64,000 bases of DNA from Congregibacter litoralis KT71 (GTDB taxonomy: Bacteria; Pseudomonadota; Gammaproteobacteria; Pseudomonadales; Halieaceae), in assembly GCF_000153125.2 (NCBI RefSeq), contig NZ_CM002299.1:248809-312808 (forward strand). Reading direction: 5' to 3'. Every line of letters starts with the position of its first letter. The stretch's first letter is position 1. Shown here piece after piece: positions 7,027 to 12,933 of this stretch. Below the pieces are notes generated by a model. It was not told the DNA's origin. It saw only the letters and a list, made by a program, of their open reading frames with translations, and searched no databases. The translations under genes and the position numbers were made by a program.

Positions 7027-9756
7027 ATGAGCGACAAGCAGCCTTTGATCCTGGTGGACGGGTCTTCTTATCTCTATCGTGCCTATCACGCCCTCCCGCC
7101 GCTCACGAACTCCAAGGGTGCGGCCACGGGCGCGGTCAAAGGCGTTATCAACATGATTCGCCGCCTCCAGAAGGATTACCCCGAGAGCACCATTGCCGTG
7201 GTCTTTGATGCCAAGGGCAAAACCTTCCGCGACGATATTTATCCCGAGTACAAGGCCAACCGGCCGCCCATGCCCGATGACCTTCGGGAGCAGATTGAAC
7301 CCATTCACAGCATTGTGCGGGGCATGGGTCTGCCCCTGCTCTGCGAGCCGGGCGTTGAGGCGGATGACGTTATCGGAACCCTCGCTAAAGAGGCGAGTGA
7401 GGCGGGCTGCTCCGTTATCGTATCCACCGGCGATAAAGATATGGCGCAGCTGGTCAACGATCGGGTCACGTTGGTGAACACCATGAACGACACGCTCATG
7501 GATCCCCAGGGCGTGGTGGATAAATTTGGCATTCCCCCGGAGCTGATCATTGATCTTCTGGCGCTCATGGGTGACAAGGTGGACAACATCCCCGGGGTGC
7601 CGGGAGTAGGAGAGAAAACCGCGCTGGGTCTCCTCCAGGGCCTTGGCGGTCTTGATCAGATTTATGCGTCCCTCGATGAAGTGCAGAACCTGTCTTTTCG
7701 CGGGGCCAAAACCATGGCGGCGAAGCTGGAGAAGGAGCGGGATAACGCCTATCTATCCTACGAGCTTGCGACCATCGCCACGGACCTGAAACTTCCCCTG
7801 GTGTATGCGGATCTTGCGAATGGCGTGCCGGATAAGGCAGCGCTCCTGGCGTTGTTCCGGGAGCTGGAATTCAAGAGCTGGATAGACGAGCTGGAGAACG
7901 AGGCATCCGGTGATAGCAGCGATGCCACGGTGGAAGCGGACACCCGCGAGCAAAACTATGTAACGGTTTTGGACCAGGCCACTTTTGATGACTGGTTATC
8001 GCGCCTGTCCGAGGCCCCGTTGTTTGCGTTTGATACGGAAACCACCAGCCTTAACTATATGGAAGCGGATATCGTGGGCCTGTCCTTTGCGGTGGAGCGC
8101 GGTGAGGCAGCCTATGTACCCCTTGCTCACAGCTATCCCGGGGCGCCGGCGCAGCTAGACCGCGATGCCATTCTGGCGGCACTGAAACCGCTGCTGGAGG
8201 ACCCTGCAAAACCCAAGCTCGGGCAGAATCTCAAGTATGACGCCAGCGTGCTGGCGCGCTACGACATTCACATGCAGGGCATCGCCTTTGACACCATGCT
8301 GGAGTCCTATGTATTGGATTCCACGGGCACGCGCCACGACATGGATAGCCTTGCGCTGAAGTATCTCGGTCGCAGTACCACTCATTTTGAGGATGTAGCA
8401 GGCAAAGGCGCCAAGCAGATTACCTTCGATCAGGTGGGCATAGAGCAGGCGGGGCCCTACGCTGCGGAAGATGCCGAGGTCACCCTCGCGCTCCATGAGA
8501 CCCTCTGGCCAAAGCTTCAGGAGTCTGCGGGCCTCGCCAGCGTCTTTTCTGATATTGAGCTGCCCCTGGTACCGGTGCTCTCCCGCATGGAGCGAACCGG
8601 TGCACTGCTGGATGAAGAGCGGCTTTGGGAGCAGAGCCGCGAGCTGGGGGGTCGGTTACAGGCTCTGGAAGAGGAGGCTCACAATCTGGCGGGCCAGGTG
8701 TTTAATCTCGGCTCCCCGAAACAGCTGGGGCAGATACTCTTCGAAAAACTCGAGCTTCCCGTCATCAAAAAAACACCCAAGGGTGCGCCCTCTACCGCAG
8801 AAGAGGTCCTGCAGGAACTTGCGCTGGATTACCCTCTGCCCAAGCTGCTTATCGAGCACCGGGGCCTATCCAAGCTCAAGTCCACCTACACGGACAAGCT
8901 GCCGGGCATGATCAACCCGCGCACGGGGCGAATTCATACCTCTTACCACCAGGCGGTGACGGCCACGGGCCGTTTGTCGTCATCGGATCCGAATTTACAA
9001 AACATACCCATCCGCACGGAAGAGGGTCGGCGTATTCGCCAGGCATTTATCGCCGCCGAGGGTTACCAGGTGGTGGCGGCGGACTATTCGCAGATTGAGC
9101 TGCGCATCATGGCGCATCTCTCGAAGGATGCGGGGCTTCTCGAAGCCTTCAGAGAGAATCTTGATGTGCACAGCGCCACGGCCGCAGAGGTCTTTGGCGT
9201 GTCCCTGGATGCGGTGTCCGGTGAACAGCGCCGCAAAGCCAAGGCGATTAACTTTGGTTTGATCTATGGCATGTCGGCCTTCGGTCTTGCCCGGCAATTG
9301 CGTCTTGATCGCGGCGAGGCCCAGCGTTACATCGACGTGTACTTTGAGCGCTATCCCGGGGTGCGGGAGTATATGGACAACACCCGGGCCCTTGCCCATG
9401 AGCAGGGCTACGTCGAAACGCTCTTCGGCCGACGTCTGTATCTGCCGGAAATCAATGTCCGGAACAAAAATCGCCAGCAGGCGGCGGAAAGAACCGCCAT
9501 CAATGCGCCTATGCAGGGTACCGCGGCAGATATCATCAAAAGAGCCATGATCACCGTAGATCGCTGGATCGCCGACGATAGCGTCGATGCGAAGATGATC
9601 ATGCAAGTTCACGACGAATTGGTGCTGGAAGTCGCAGAGGATCAGCTCGATCCTGTCTGTGATGAGCTGTGTAAGCAGATGTCGGCGGCCGCTGAACTCG
9701 CCGTGCCTTTGCTCGTCGAGGTGGGGCGCGGCGCGAATTGGGACGAAGCCCACTAA
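7027..9756 (+). CDS. polA: DNA polymerase I
   Basis: 909 residues, close to the family's usual 900-930. The N-terminal 5'-nuclease domain (about 1-290) has [14 protein letters not shown] and the VEADDVIGT metal site. The 3'-5' exonuclease domain (about 310-500) keeps its acidic residues in [16 protein letters not shown] and YAAEDAEVT, so proofreading should be active. The polymerase domain (about 530-909) has the DYSQIELR motif A at about 687, the O-helix region with [14 protein letters not shown] and the catalytic HDE at about 862. ATG at 7027; AGGAGT lies 14-19 bases upstream. Downstream lies a small RNA candidate and then engB, the gene order in which Spot 42 and ErsA occur. Confidence 0.99.
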
Positions 9757-9774: not shown

Positions 9775-9802
9775 GGAACTTCTTTTCTAAAGCGCCCTCA
9801 AA
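9775..9802 (+). promoter_or_regulatory. Sigma-E/AlgU-type promoter
   Basis: GGAACTT at 9775-9781, a 16-bp spacer, then TCAAA at 9798-9802. This matches the -35 (GGAACTT) and -10 (TCAAA) elements known for the extracytoplasmic stress factor sigma-E (RpoE; AlgU in pseudomonads). It begins 18 bases after the polA stop and points at an intrinsic terminator about 90 bases further on, with no open frame between. Confidence 0.65.
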
Positions 9803-9807
9803 CTTAT

Positions 9808-9931
9808 CGTGACAATGAAGTGAAGTGCATTGTTCCGGAACGCTGGTTAGCATGGTTTCCAGCGTTCGAACCCCTAGAGACCCTGACTGCCCGGTTGCTT
9901 TTCTCCTCGTTTTGCAACCGGGCCTTTTTTT
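9808..9931 (+). ncRNA. Candidate ErsA/Spot 42-locus small RNA
   Basis: A predicted transcript of about 124 bases starting roughly six bases after the sigma-E-like -10 and ending at an intrinsic terminator. It contains a first hairpin with a perfect 9-bp stem (9838-9846 with 9859-9867, loop of 12) and the terminator hairpin, whose loop is pyrimidine-rich (TTTTCTCCTC), the type of sequence that can pair with ribosome binding sites. The interval between polA and engB holds spf (Spot 42) in enterics and ersA in Pseudomonas, the latter about 132 bases long and dependent on AlgU. Position, promoter type and length agree with an ErsA analogue; I did not see clear sequence identity to either RNA. Confidence 0.65.
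9889..9931 (+). terminator. Intrinsic terminator of the polA–engB small RNA
   Basis: A perfect 10-bp GC-rich stem, GCCCGGTTGC (9889-9898) with GCAACCGGGC (9914-9923), and a 15-base pyrimidine-rich loop is followed by C and seven T residues. This is the strongest intrinsic terminator in the region and would also end read-through from polA. Confidence 0.85.
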
Positions 9932-9984
9932 GCCCGCAATTCTCATAAACCGCTGAAAAATTTCATTTTTATTGGCTTTGTAAC

Positions 9985-10209
9985 GCGAGCAATCACCGCA
10001 GTGCCCCGCTCGCTGCTGTCGCTTTTACGCTTCGCGAAACACTTCCGCGCTTGCTCGCTGAGCACAATGTCAGCGAACCGGCGTGTGGTTTCCGTAGACT
10101 CCTACGCCACGAACCGCGAGCAATCACGGCAGTGCCCCGCTCGCTGCTGTCGCTTTTACGCTTCGCGAAACACTCCCGCGCTTGCTCGCTGGGCACGATG
10201 CGAGCGAAT
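9985..10209 (+). repeat. Two direct copies of a 94-bp repeat with internal inverted arms
   Basis: Copy 1 (9985-10078) and copy 2 (10116-10209) are offset by exactly 131 bp and differ at only a few positions. Each copy starts with GCGAGCAA and contains TTGCTCGC about 58 bases later (10051-10058 and 10182-10189), so each can fold into a long stem-loop. The 37-bp spacer holds its own small hairpin (CGTAG/CTACG). No open frame or promoter explains the block. It fills the space between the small RNA terminator and engB and looks like a REP- or MITE-like intergenic element, but I cannot assign a family. Confidence 0.7.
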
Positions 10210-10213
10210 CGGT

Positions 10214-10274
10214 AGATGACAAGGTTCACGTACCGATCCCCCAAGTCTTTTTCGGGGAGTGAACCTTGTCATCT
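10214..10274. repeat. Perfect 16-bp inverted repeat with nested stem
   Basis: Arms at 10214-10229 and 10259-10274 are perfect 16-bp reverse complements. Inside the 29-base loop, TCCCC (10237-10241) can pair with GGGGA (10254-10258), extending the structure. It lies 33 bases past the engB stop and between convergent polA and engB, where a bidirectional terminator could be useful; there is no T run outside the arms. It abuts the 131-bp-period repeat block and may be part of the same element. Confidence 0.6.
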
Positions 10275-10306
10275 GCTGGTTTGCGGAATGCTTGCGCAGG
10301 GGGTGT

Positions 10307-10999
10307 TTAGGGGGCGAGGTCGGCCTCTTCGGAGTCATCGTCAAATACTGACGTATCCGTAAGCCACTGATCAAGGGTCGCGATCAACTCGCCATGCCCT
10401 GTGTGCTTAAGTGCCGAGAACAGCTGGCAGGTGACCAGTTCACCGAGAGGGGCGACGCTGTTTCTGACCTTGAGAAGGGTCTGTTTGCCGGCGCCCTTGG
10501 ACAGCTTGTCGCATTTGGTGAGGAGCATGTGCACCGGCATATCCGCTTCTGCGGCCCAGGTGAGCATCTGCTGGTCAAAGGGCTGGAGGGGGTGGCGACA
10601 GTCCGATAACAGGATAAGACCCCGCAGGCTCTGTCGCTCCTGGAGATAGGCCTCCATCTGTTTAGTCCAGTCCTGCTTGAGTTTTTGCGGTACTTTGGCA
10701 TACCCGTAGCCCGGCAGGTCGACGATGCGCTGCTGCTCACCGACGGTGAAAAAGTTGATGAGCTGCGTTCGCCCCGGGGTTTTGGAGGTGCGCGCGAGTT
10801 TGTGGTTTTGCGTCAGGCTGTTGATAGCACTGCTTTTTCCGGCGTTTGAGCGTCCTGCGAAGGCCACTTCCCAGCCAATATCCTCAGGGCATTGGCTGAC
10901 TTTGGCGGCGCTGGTGAGGAACGCGGCTTTGCGATAGGCCGGTTTGCTGACGGGCTCGGCCAGGGCGGCGCCCTTCGGGTGATTTGTTGGGGTATCCAT
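10307..10999 (-). CDS. engB: Ribosome biogenesis GTPase EngB (YihA/YsxC)
   Basis: 230-residue TRAFAC GTPase needed for large ribosomal subunit assembly. The G motifs are in order: GRSNAGKSS (49-57), [15 protein letters not shown] and LLTKCDK. I chose the ATG at 10999; a frame extends upstream by 37 codons but crosses the promoter region and lacks family similarity. The protein ends in an acidic tail ([12 protein letters not shown]). It is convergent with polA and divergent from the cytochrome c5 gene, with the repeat block behind it. Confidence 0.97.
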
Positions 11000-11011
11000 C
11001 TTGAGTATAAT
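10984..11011 (+). promoter_or_regulatory. Sigma-70 promoter of the cytochrome c5/c4 genes
   Basis: TTGTTG (10984-10989), a 16-bp spacer and a perfect TATAAT (11006-11011) point toward the cytochrome genes. The leader would be about 118 bases. The promoter overlaps the first codons of the divergent engB gene. Confidence 0.5.
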
Positions 11012-11135
11012 AGCGCGCCCTTCAAATAGAGGGGCGTGAATTGTGGGGTGTTTCTCGCATCGAATTACCAGAGGTCTTGAGCACATGTTGAGACCTTGTG
11101 AGGACGCCAACCTTGACCGTTAGGAGGAATTTACC

Positions 11136-11432
11136 GTGAAGAAAGTCATTTTGGCCGCTGCGGTAGCGGTACTTGCTATGGCTGCTCATGCAGAGCCGAA
11201 TATGGAGAAGTACGGTAAAAGCTGTGCCGTCTGTCACGCTGCCGGTGTCGCCGGTGCCCCCAAGACGGGCGATGCGTCAGCCTGGGAGCCTCGGCTGGCC
11301 AAGGGCATGGACGCATTGATGGCGTCTGTGAAGAACGGTCTCAATGCAATGCCGCCCATGGGCATGTGCTTTGACTGTTCGGATGAAGAGTACATGGAAC
11401 TGATCAAGTACATGTCTACACCGGCTGAATAA
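11136..11432 (+). CDS. Cytochrome c5-type monoheme cytochrome
   Basis: 98 residues with a signal peptide (about 1-19, cut after AHA), a CAVCH heme site (Cys 30, Cys 33, His 34) and a late PPMGM segment giving the Met ligand. The CFDC pair after the Met is typical of cytochrome c5, where it forms a disulfide. It starts with GTG at 11136, eight bases after an excellent AGGAGG site. As a periplasmic electron carrier it would serve terminal oxidases. It is followed 34 bases later by cytochrome c4, and the two probably share one transcript. Confidence 0.93.
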   Translation: MKKVILAAAVAVLAMAAHAEPNMEKYGKSCAVCHAAGVAGAPKTGDASAWEPRLAKGMDALMASVKNGLNAMPPMGMCFDCSDEEYMELIKYMSTPAE

Positions 11433-11466
11433 GCAGCCGGAAAAAAAGCGTAGGGATTCTGAAATT

Positions 11467-12108
11467 ATGAAAAAGCTGCTTGTTCTCAGAGCGTTCATTG
11501 TAGGCGCAGTTGTTAGCACCGCGAGTGTGCAGGCTGCTGAGATACTCAAGGGTGACCCCGTCGCCGGTGAGCAAAAGGCCGTTGCCTGCGGTGCCTGCCA
11601 TGGTGCTGATGGAAACAGTGCCGTTGCAATGTTCCCCAAGCTTGCGGGACTGGGCGAAAAGTACCTGCTCAAGCAGACCCAGTACATCCGCGATGGCGTG
11701 CGCCCGGTAGCGCAGATGGCTGGTCAGGTTGACAACATGTCCGATCAGGATCTTGCGGATATCGCCGCCTATTTTGACAGCCAGCCTCGCGGGGTTGAGA
11801 AAGCCGATCCGGAGCTCGTTGCCCTGGGCGAAAAGGTTTATCGCGCCGGTGTCGCAGAACGCAATGTGGCTGCCTGCATCGCCTGTCACGGCGCCCGGGG
11901 TGCCGGAAACGCACCAGCGGGCTTTCCTGCCCTCGGCGGTCAGCATGCAGACTACGTAGCATCGCAGCTCAAGGCTTATCGCAAAGGTTACGAGGATCCC
12001 ACGGGTCGCGTTACCGGCGGTGAGACCAAAATCATGCGCAGCAACGCTTTCGGCCTTTCTGATATGGAAATCGAAGCGGTGGCGGCCTATGTGTCGGGCC
12101 TCAACTAG
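11467..12108 (+). CDS. Diheme cytochrome c4
   Basis: 213 residues: signal peptide (about 1-23) and two cytochrome c domains with heme sites CGACH (41-45) and CIACH (137-141). Each domain has the KxMxxxxxxLSDxE-like end, seen as NNMSDQDLADIAAYF and NAFGLSDMEIEAVAAY. Cytochrome c4 carries electrons to terminal oxidases in gammaproteobacteria. It follows the c5 gene and precedes dsbA, the same cluster as in pseudomonads, and ends at an intrinsic terminator. Confidence 0.96.
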   Translation: MKKLLVLRAFIVGAVVSTASVQAAEILKGDPVAGEQKAVACGACHGADGNSAVAMFPKLAGLGEKYLLKQTQYIRDGVRPVAQMAGQVDNMSDQDLADIAAYFDSQPRGVEKADPELVALGEKVYRAGVAERNVAACIACHGARGAGNAPAGFPALGGQHADYVASQLKAYRKGYEDPTGRVTGGETKIMRSNAFGLSDMEIEAVAAYVSGLN

Positions 12109-12138
12109 CCAGCATTTCTGAACGCAGTAGTTCGATAA

Positions 12139-12166
12139 ACGGCTCGCCTTGCGGGCCGTTTTTTTT
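12139..12166 (+). terminator. Intrinsic terminator after cytochrome c4
   Basis: Stem ACGGCTC (12139-12145) with GGGCCGT (12153-12159), one G-U pair, 7-base loop, then a run of eight T (12159-12166). It separates the cytochrome transcript from dsbA. Confidence 0.85.
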
Positions 12167-12276
12167 GATAGACGGATTTGAATAACGACCGGGATCCATG
12201 GCGGTGCCCAAAAGACGAACTTTTCGTTACGATGCCTGTCCGAGTAGTTAACCCCAAGATGTTTCTGGAGAAGATT

Positions 12277-12933
12277 ATGCTTAAGCGTATTTGCCTCGCT
12301 GCCTTCGCGATGCTCGCCCTGCAGCTGGCGGCGCTGTCCGCTCAGGCCCAAGACGAAAACTACGTGGCGGGAGAGCACTACGATGTTATCTCCCCGGCCA
12401 TCCGTGGAAGCTCTGACAAAATCGAGGTCACGGAGTTTTTCTGGTACGGCTGTGGCCACTGCTACACCTTCGAGCCTCAGCTGACGCAATGGAAAAAAGG
12501 TCTGGCGGACGACGTGGTTGTGAAGGGCTCACCCGCCATGTGGAACGGACCGATGGAAATCCACGCAAAAGCTTTTTATGCCGCAGAGGCGCTGGGCGTG
12601 TTGGATAAAATGCACATGCCGCTGTTTCAGGCCCTCAATGTAGATCGCAAGCGCCTGGCTAATGAGGACGAGCTGGCGGACCTGTTTGCCGCTAATGGCG
12701 TTTCCCGGGAGGACTTTTCCAAGGCGTTTAACTCCTTCGGCGTTGGCAGCCAGGCCCGACAGGCAAACGCACGGGCCCGTGCCGCTAAAATCACCGGTAC
12801 GCCGGAACTGATGGTGGCGGGGAAGTATCGCATCAGCACACGCAAGGCCGGTGGTCAGGCAAATATGCTCAAGATTGCGGATTTTCTCATTGAGAAAGAA
12901 CGCGCCATGCAGATGGCAGACTCCAAGTCCTAA
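12277..12933 (+). CDS. dsbA: Thiol:disulfide interchange protein DsbA
   Basis: 218 residues: signal peptide ending at SAQAQ (about residue 25) and a thioredoxin-fold domain with the active site CGHC (Cys 59, Cys 62) in FWYGCGHCY. The cis-proline loop GTPELMV is present. DsbA introduces disulfides into exported proteins in the periplasm and is reoxidised by DsbB. I chose ATG 12277 because GGAG lies six bases upstream and it gives a proper signal peptide; upstream in-frame codons do not. A strong GC hairpin follows the stop. Confidence 0.96.
   Translation: MLKRICLAAFAMLALQLAALSAQAQDENYVAGEHYDVISPAIRGSSDKIEVTEFFWYGCGHCYTFEPQLTQWKKGLADDVVVKGSPAMWNGPMEIHAKAFYAAEALGVLDKMHMPLFQALNVDRKRLANEDELADLFAANGVSREDFSKAFNSFGVGSQARQANARARAAKITGTPELMVAGKYRISTRKAGGQANMLKIADFLIEKERAMQMADSKS

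Follow-up and report, generated by a model that had tools for sequence, protein, structure and literature searches.

What does the interval between polA and engB encode in Congregibacter litoralis KT71, and is it related to the small RNAs described at this chromosomal address in other bacteria? An earlier inspection of the bare DNA, the sequence-only reading, had proposed a small RNA driven by sigma-E at this place. We followed up the proposal in a window of 64,000 nt from the single-contig genome of 4.35 Mb, and conclude that a short regulatory RNA, controlled by envelope stress, is very probably produced from the DNA just behind the gene for DNA polymerase I. Comparison with related genomes strongly supports a sigma-E-driven small RNA between polA and engB. 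The RNA of the window is new, polA-engB small RNAs as a kind are already known, and the broader family is the more interesting part of the result. The features of the locus are as follows, R2 being the family covariance model introduced below.

7027..9756, + strand: polA, encoding DNA polymerase I, the upstream neighbour (NCBIfam TIGR00593 957 bits and NF004397 1220 bits, both above cut-off)
9775..9802, + strand: sigma-E-type promoter motif GGAACTT-N16-TCAAA (from the sequence; upstream motif conserved across the RNA family)
9808..9931, + strand: putative small RNA of about 124 nt, its start predicted from the promoter (R2 match 9813-9930, E=5.5e-4; fold z-score -3.0)
9808..9837, + strand: hairpin 1, at the 5' end (fold; family helix 1 changed on both sides at 5 of 5 pairs)
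9838..9867, + strand: hairpin 2, 9 bp, loop with a conserved CATGG (fold; compensatory changes within the genus)
9868..9888, + strand: C-rich single-stranded linker GAACCCCTAGAGACCCTGACT, probable pairing region (unpaired in the fold; alignment with hairpin 3 of the relatives)
9889..9931, + strand: intrinsic terminator with 10-bp stem, anti-Shine-Dalgarno-like loop TTTTCTCCTCGTTTT and T run (sequence and fold)
10307..11110, - strand: engB/yihA, the convergent downstream neighbour (TIGR03598 238 bits, cut-off 124)

Both flanking genes are recognised by their curated models, TIGR00593 and TIGR03598, and the claimed location between polA and a convergent engB/yihA is therefore correct. The stop codon TAA of polA occupies positions 9754-9756, and the promoter that had been described behind it is borne out base for base, with GGAACTT at 9775-9781, a spacer of 16 nt at 9782-9797 and TCAAA at 9798-9802. 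The arms GAACGCTGG and CCAGCGTTC (9838-9846 and 9859-9867) form hairpin 2, and the terminator consists of a perfect stem of 10 bp (GCCCGGTTGC/GCAACCGGGC, 9889-9898/9914-9923) closing a pyrimidine-rich loop of 15 nt, followed by the T run CTTTTTTT at 9924-9931, confirming the 9-bp hairpin, the terminator hairpin and the overall length of about 124 bases given by the sequence-only reading. A simple terminator scan misses this terminator because it allows loops of 8 nt at most. Folding of positions 9808-9934 gives a z-score of -3.0, with none of 200 shuffles equally stable.

Between the RNA and engB the window also carries a direct repeat of 98 nt (9984-10081 and 10115-10212, 93% identical), which a search of the whole genome finds in these two places only; similar repeats were seen by eye in the polA-engB interval of the congener G001. 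An inverted repeat with 33-nt arms, 79% complementary, lies at 10204-10284 just before the engB stop codon. Behind engB, cytochrome-c-like and DsbA-like genes were noted by eye at 11136-12933, an order known from Pseudomonas.

Taken by itself, the promoter motif is without significance and proves nothing, because the strict pattern GGAACTT-N15-17-TCWRA occurs three times in the 4.35-Mb genome, the window site included, and four times when read backwards as a control; a simple scan of the site for sigma-70 promoters was uninformative. What rises above chance is the conservation of the motif together with the RNA, plus the covarying helices. Searches with blastn find the RNA in all four genomes of the genus, always after polA, and each of these carries GGAACTT-N16-TCAAA or TCATA at this place. 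The segments best conserved in the genus include GAGACCCTGACTGCCCGG, running from the end of the linker into the terminator stem and identical in all four congeners, and the invariant core of the terminator loop, TTCTCCTCGTT. At least one compensatory double change is present at 4 of 23 predicted pairs in these four sequences.

With blastn the RNA matched only five of 100 genomes of the taxonomic family, while PolA matched in 93 of them, the four genus genomes included. A common RNA became apparent on reading 64 regions of up to 1 kb downstream of polA, from 60 of 89 genomes outside the genus, the three congeners and the window. A first covariance model, R1, comprised only 12 pairs from a poor alignment, gave 20 matches at E<=10 over 80 named loci (16 of which lay on the + strand at most 600 nt from polA) and was replaced by two others, R2 and R3. 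R2, built from 13 family members outside the genus, finds the RNA in 52 of the 64 regions (133 kb searched), a count which by construction includes the 13 training sequences, and gives no match in the stretch read for the remaining 12; two further matches (E 0.47 and 0.94) lie on the opposite strand over the same RNAs. The window RNA is thus recovered by a model trained wholly outside its genus, as the sole match at E<=1 in 64 kb (E=5.5e-4), and the three congeners follow with E-values of 6.2e-4, 0.0062 and 0.027, the match in L082 skipping hairpin 1. In six of the 52 regions (L088, L090, L113, L115, L118 and L120) the RNA stands about 0.9 kb behind polA, with other sequence between.

Covariation was assessed in an alignment of 49 complete RNAs, from which three cut by the end of the stretch (L088, L090, L115) and the two opposite-strand matches had been dropped. 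Pairing is possible in 96.8% of cells versus 84.9% after shuffling, and the covariation score is 0.368 versus 0.151, with at most 0.062 for slid structures, figures that are flattered by an alignment fitted to the structure. All four helices covary, and 23 of 26 pairs have changed on both sides. The pattern GAAC[TC]-N15-17-TC precedes 48 of the 49 RNAs versus 34 of 2450 shuffles of the same stretches, and its position is -29 relative to the model start in 42 of the 49; the count of 48 is partly circular, since most members were first chosen by the promoter pattern (L114 was added by hand). The covariance models themselves contain no promoter, and a less biased figure comes from loci chosen across the class by R3 alone, 21 of 30 of which carry the motif, own locus included and with L173 among the 21 as a poor match. 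An alignment of the polA-engB interval across relatives, which the sequence-only reading had named as a check on its proposal, yields a promoter motif in 48 of 49 members and four covarying helices.

These data bear on two rival accounts of the locus. The conserved segment could merely be the terminator and 3' untranslated tail of polA, preceded by an accidental promoter-like motif: the RNA follows polA on the same strand, neither inspection by eye nor the scan revealed another terminator between them, and strict promoter motifs are not enriched genome-wide. A tail of this kind is difficult to reconcile with a motif whose distance to the RNA is constant in 42 of 49 members, with four covarying helices, with the roughly 0.9 kb of other sequence separating polA from the RNA in six family genomes, or with one genome in which four copies stand in tandem between polA and engB (L154 1285-2039, G252:C33), each copy having a separate promoter-like motif (GGAAC...GGTCTGACC) and a separate terminator, and we consider this account very improbable. 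The locus could also specify a dual-function RNA after the manner of Spot 42/SpfP that acts mainly by way of a small protein; the spfP frame is carried by E. coli spf. The claim that the RNA is without a reading frame was nearly right: frames do start inside it, an ATG frame of 34 codons at 9852 and GTG frames of 42 and 43 codons at 9820 and 9825, and none retains both start and length across the four congeners. All three continue beyond the terminator, and from the ATG of 9852 a stop is reached after 8 codons in G001 and after 11 in G002. The sequence RWL(A/T)WF is encoded in one frame in three of four congeners, in frames of 42, 22 and 38 codons with differing start codons, is missing in G003, and its common residues fall on the conserved loop of hairpin 2. 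From these comparisons a small protein appears unlikely, and of all the alternatives weighed here its being the main product is the one to which we give the least credence.

The usual form of the RNA in the taxonomic family has four hairpins, three of them with C-rich, anti-Shine-Dalgarno-like loops: a GTAGC-GCTAC hairpin, a second one often with the loop UCUCCAU, a third reading GUCUC-UUUCCCCA-GAGAC, and a terminator whose loop resembles CCCCCUA. In 33 of 49 members CCCC or CUCC is present in three of the hairpin loops, and the mean number of such loops is 2.49 per RNA versus 0.20 in mononucleotide shuffles (n=49). As single folds, four members of the usual form reach z-scores of -5.4 to -7.8 and three congeners -2.8 to -3.7. 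In a sub-group (L131, L132, L135) the terminator loop is without CCCC (GTAAAA, TGCGAGAT, GAAA) and the loop of hairpin 3 keeps it.

The genus of the window has a derived form, in which hairpin 3 was lost, the C-rich stretch became linear and the loop of the terminator was altered. All four genus members lack the 5' arm of hairpin 3 according to alignments by eye, leaving the C-rich stretch linear, and hairpin 3 is not formed in the folds; aligned with the relatives, the linker 9868-9888 corresponds to family hairpin 3 minus this arm. The sequence of loop 2 is UUAGCAUGGUU or close to it, and UCUCCUCG is found in the loop of the terminator. In place of the three C-rich loops of sX13, the window RNA has a single hairpin loop with CUCC, together with a C-rich linker that is linear. 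Given the loss, in the genus, of one arm of hairpin 3 and of two C-rich loops out of three, functional likeness to the relatives is not assured. The changed parts are those expected to pair with mRNAs, and the targets may have changed with them.

RpoE is encoded at 1857665 (308.9 bits, curated cut-off 236), followed by genes with RseA_N and MucB_RseB domains, and GGAACT-N17-TC lies upstream of rpoE with a spacing equal to that of the window motif, the start codon of rpoE being provisional. These genes, the motif upstream of rpoE and the conservation of the motif with the RNA lend good support to the sigma-E promoter that had been claimed. The RpoE model matches nine genome loci at E<=0.001, and another sigma factor of the ECF type might therefore read the site. 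Hfq is encoded in all four genomes of the genus.

How does the RNA relate to those already named? Rfam gives no match at gathering score anywhere in the 64-kb window. A sub-threshold search of 211 bases returned six matches at E<=10, the best being ErsA (RF01719) with 24.3 bits and E=0.0056 at a gathering score of 50; Spot 42 (RF00021) reached 12.5 bits (E=5.2, gathering 80). These are the two covariance models with which the sequence-only reading had proposed a comparison, and its suggestion of an undescribed member was right. Matches to NsiR1 and BSR0626, the latter on the other strand, were treated as chance. The sX13 model (RF02232) gives no match in the window at its gathering score of 50 and is not one of the six matches at E<=10, the best of 20 family loci reaching 35.1 bits; likewise anti-hemB (RF02837) gives no match in the window at gathering score (49.5 bits) or among the matches at E<=10.

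Run over 100 whole family genomes, the ErsA model produced 13 matches at E<=1, none above cut-off, and seven of them lie at the polA-engB locus, the seventh (G043) adjoining engB at a contig end; the only match in the own genome is the window locus (E=0.027). With E=7e-4, G063:C108 is the family's strongest match; it stands at the end of an open frame and not beside polA, and was judged to be chance, and five more away from polA have E-values of 0.12 to 0.59. Rfam models applied to 20 family loci gave 15 matches at E<=1, 11 of them on the RNA: five to sX13 (best 35.1 bits, E=0.0021), three to anti-hemB, two to ErsA and one to BcKCsr2.

Beyond the taxonomic family, a search of 79 named polA loci with R2 gave 21 matches at E<=10, of which 19 lie on the + strand and no further than 600 nt from polA. 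The broader model R3 was built from the 49 RNAs with the window included, so that its E-value of 8e-10 in the own genome is not independent evidence, which R2 provides. Over 99 loci R3 gave 36 matches at E<=10; 32 of these have the same strand and the same maximal distance from polA and belong to 30 loci, 13 of which have E<0.01; at E<=10 it matched neither E. coli spf nor any of 19 control loci away from polA. Spot 42 membership was rejected on the 12.5 bits and the missing R3 match to spf. Rfam was applied to 77 of these 79 named polA loci and at gathering score identifies ErsA in four (L018, L022, L027, L052); the other matches are three tRNAs, and no further named small RNA is found; R3 recovers all four ErsA loci in place with E-values of 0.00027, 0.031, 0.22 and 0.87, the last two being weak.

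Over 276 class genomes R3 gives matches at E<=0.1 in 59, the own genome, which contributed to training, included. The class is presumably Gammaproteobacteria, judging from the closest PolA matches, which come from a Gammaproteobacteria MAG (L002), a Cellvibrionales MAG and Spongiibacter thalassae. Thirty of the loci were fetched, own included, and 24 adjoin polA or engB: 20 have the end of PolA within 1.5 kb upstream on the same strand, four have a convergent EngB downstream and six have neither. Three hairpin loops with CCCC or CUCC occur in 18 of 29 loci, the own locus excluded. Of 18 loci examined with Rfam, L168 is sX13 (103.2 bits), L159 and L160 are anti-hemB (58.4 and 51.7 bits), and 15 have no match at gathering score; Rfam assigns no clan to RF01719, RF02232 and RF02837. 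Relatives occur in many families of the class, a scope that the sequence-only reading understated. L170, L175 and L176 have the RNA and a sigma-E-type motif with no PolA or EngB match in the 3 kb fetched, and are therefore perhaps moved copies. L167 (1140-1593, G222:C12), likewise with no PolA or EngB match in 3 kb, contains two R3 matches about 0.36 kb apart.

ErsA resembles the window RNA in its location in the polA-engB interval, its sigma-E-type motif, its length of about 130 nt, its C-rich segments and its strong terminator, and differs in the terminator loop, which is UUUUCUCCUCGUUUU in the window and of the CCUCCCCAUA type at the four ErsA loci. The ersA gene is placed in the polA-engB region in one report (PMC8575079), and in two others ErsA is described as sigma-22-dependent and as repressing algC with the aid of Hfq (PMC8395346), its regulation of amrZ being said to be Hfq-independent (PMC5819304). 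sX13 of the Xanthomonadaceae lies just downstream of polA and has C-rich loops of the family form, its model matches five family RNAs and R3 finds its locus L168; it differs in that no sigma-E-type motif was found at L168, and the window RNA is without hairpin 3. Anti-hemB, or Burkholderia RNA 7, is represented above gathering score by two R3 loci, L159 with polA and engB as neighbours and L160 next to engB, whereas its model has 81 positions and leaves the window RNA unmatched. Spot 42 of enterics and Vibrionaceae shares with the window RNA the polA-yihA/engB interval in E. coli and differs in the spfP frame. Its promoter is repressed by CRP-cAMP, and the 'cuckoo' RNAs of Alphaproteobacteria carry CCUCCUCCC loops. 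According to the sX13 paper (PMC3771888), the C-rich loops of this RNA repress mRNAs with G-rich motifs near their start sites independently of Hfq; the same source notes polA-adjacent Spot 42 and alpha-r7 and asks whether other polA loci encode small RNAs, and by its description alphaproteobacterial alpha-r7, polA-adjacent with three stem-loops and C-rich motifs, is also alike.

In the searched literature, which leaves most subscription-journal papers and preprints outside its scope, so that a link may be in print elsewhere, no paper names any two of sX13, ErsA, anti-hemB and RF01719. Four papers mention Spot 42 alongside one of them; only PMC3771888 and PMC8575079 combine small RNA with polA-locus, polA-engB or downstream-of-polA wording, and no paper on a small RNA of Halieaceae was found by title.

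Do these likenesses reflect common descent? A polA-locus small RNA unrelated by descent to ErsA or sX13 might have converged with them on C-rich loops and a strong terminator. With the ErsA model the window stays at 24.3 bits, short of the gathering score of 50. C-rich stems and T runs work in favour of R3, its E-values for two of the four ErsA loci are as weak as 0.22 and 0.87, and the 5' sequence profile does not extend outside the family: a sequence-only profile of the pre-terminator part gave three matches with E-values of 2 to 7.7 in 128 loci, none convincing, so that the wider relation rests on structure, loops, terminator, promoter motif and position. Convergence has to be set against the finding that R3 locates all four ErsA in place (E 0.00027 to 0.87), these being the only named small RNAs at the 77 scanned polA loci, that class-wide it finds one sX13 and two anti-hemB loci, that the Rfam models of sX13, anti-hemB and ErsA in turn match family RNAs in place, and that locus, promoter type and loop order are common to them; we regard it as unlikely, albeit as the most serious of the competing accounts. 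The data suggest that the window RNA belongs to an old and widespread family, to which ErsA, sX13 and anti-hemB may belong too. Another question is whether the RNA uses its C-rich or CUCCU segments to sequester a protein or ribosomes instead of acting on specific mRNAs. Its loops are generic anti-Shine-Dalgarno motifs, and in the own genome no gene targets are enriched: translation starts preceded by the loop complement number four versus four for the reversed control (nine versus none in G001), and no gene is common to the own genome and G001. The nearest studied RNAs, sX13 and ErsA, act on particular mRNAs, and sequestration seems improbable to us. An open frame of 265 codons at L188, exported-looking by eye, is a weak target lead only.

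Altogether, we favor a model, to which we assign a probability of about 0.8, according to which the locus specifies a trans-acting noncoding RNA transcribed by sigma-E, the diverged genus form of the family, that blocks ribosome-binding regions under envelope stress. RNA polymerase with a sigma-E of the RpoE/AlgU type would transcribe about 124 nt of noncoding RNA from the promoter just behind polA, and transcription would end at the RNA's own terminator before engB. Envelope stress would free RpoE from an RseA-like anti-sigma factor, resulting in a rise of the RNA, the genus's diverged representative of a polA-engB family with C-rich, anti-Shine-Dalgarno-like loops. Its linker 9868-9888 and the UCUCCUC terminator loop would then pair, probably with Hfq, with G-rich ribosome-binding regions, lowering translation of chosen mRNAs. 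Blocking of ribosome-binding sites under envelope stress is its likely function.

Going further back, we tentatively consider, at less than even odds, that one ancestral sigma-E-dependent anti-Shine-Dalgarno RNA became fixed at polA-engB early in the Gammaproteobacteria (in the broad GTDB sense), from which ErsA, sX13, anti-hemB and unnamed RNAs would descend, and also Spot 42 with changed promoter and sequence. The genus of the window would then have switched its seed, hairpin 3 becoming a linear pairing region and the terminator loop changing from CCCCCUA to UUCUCCUCG, and its target set should therefore differ from that of the sister genera.

In summary, the polA locus in many families carries a structured RNA whose loops are C-rich and which a sigma-E-type motif usually precedes, and one model, R3, links three Rfam families that are without a clan. 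If the common origin holds, RNAs that block ribosome sites would have been coupled to envelope stress at a single chromosomal address over a very long period, and the genus of the window would be a natural experiment on seed change in such an RNA.
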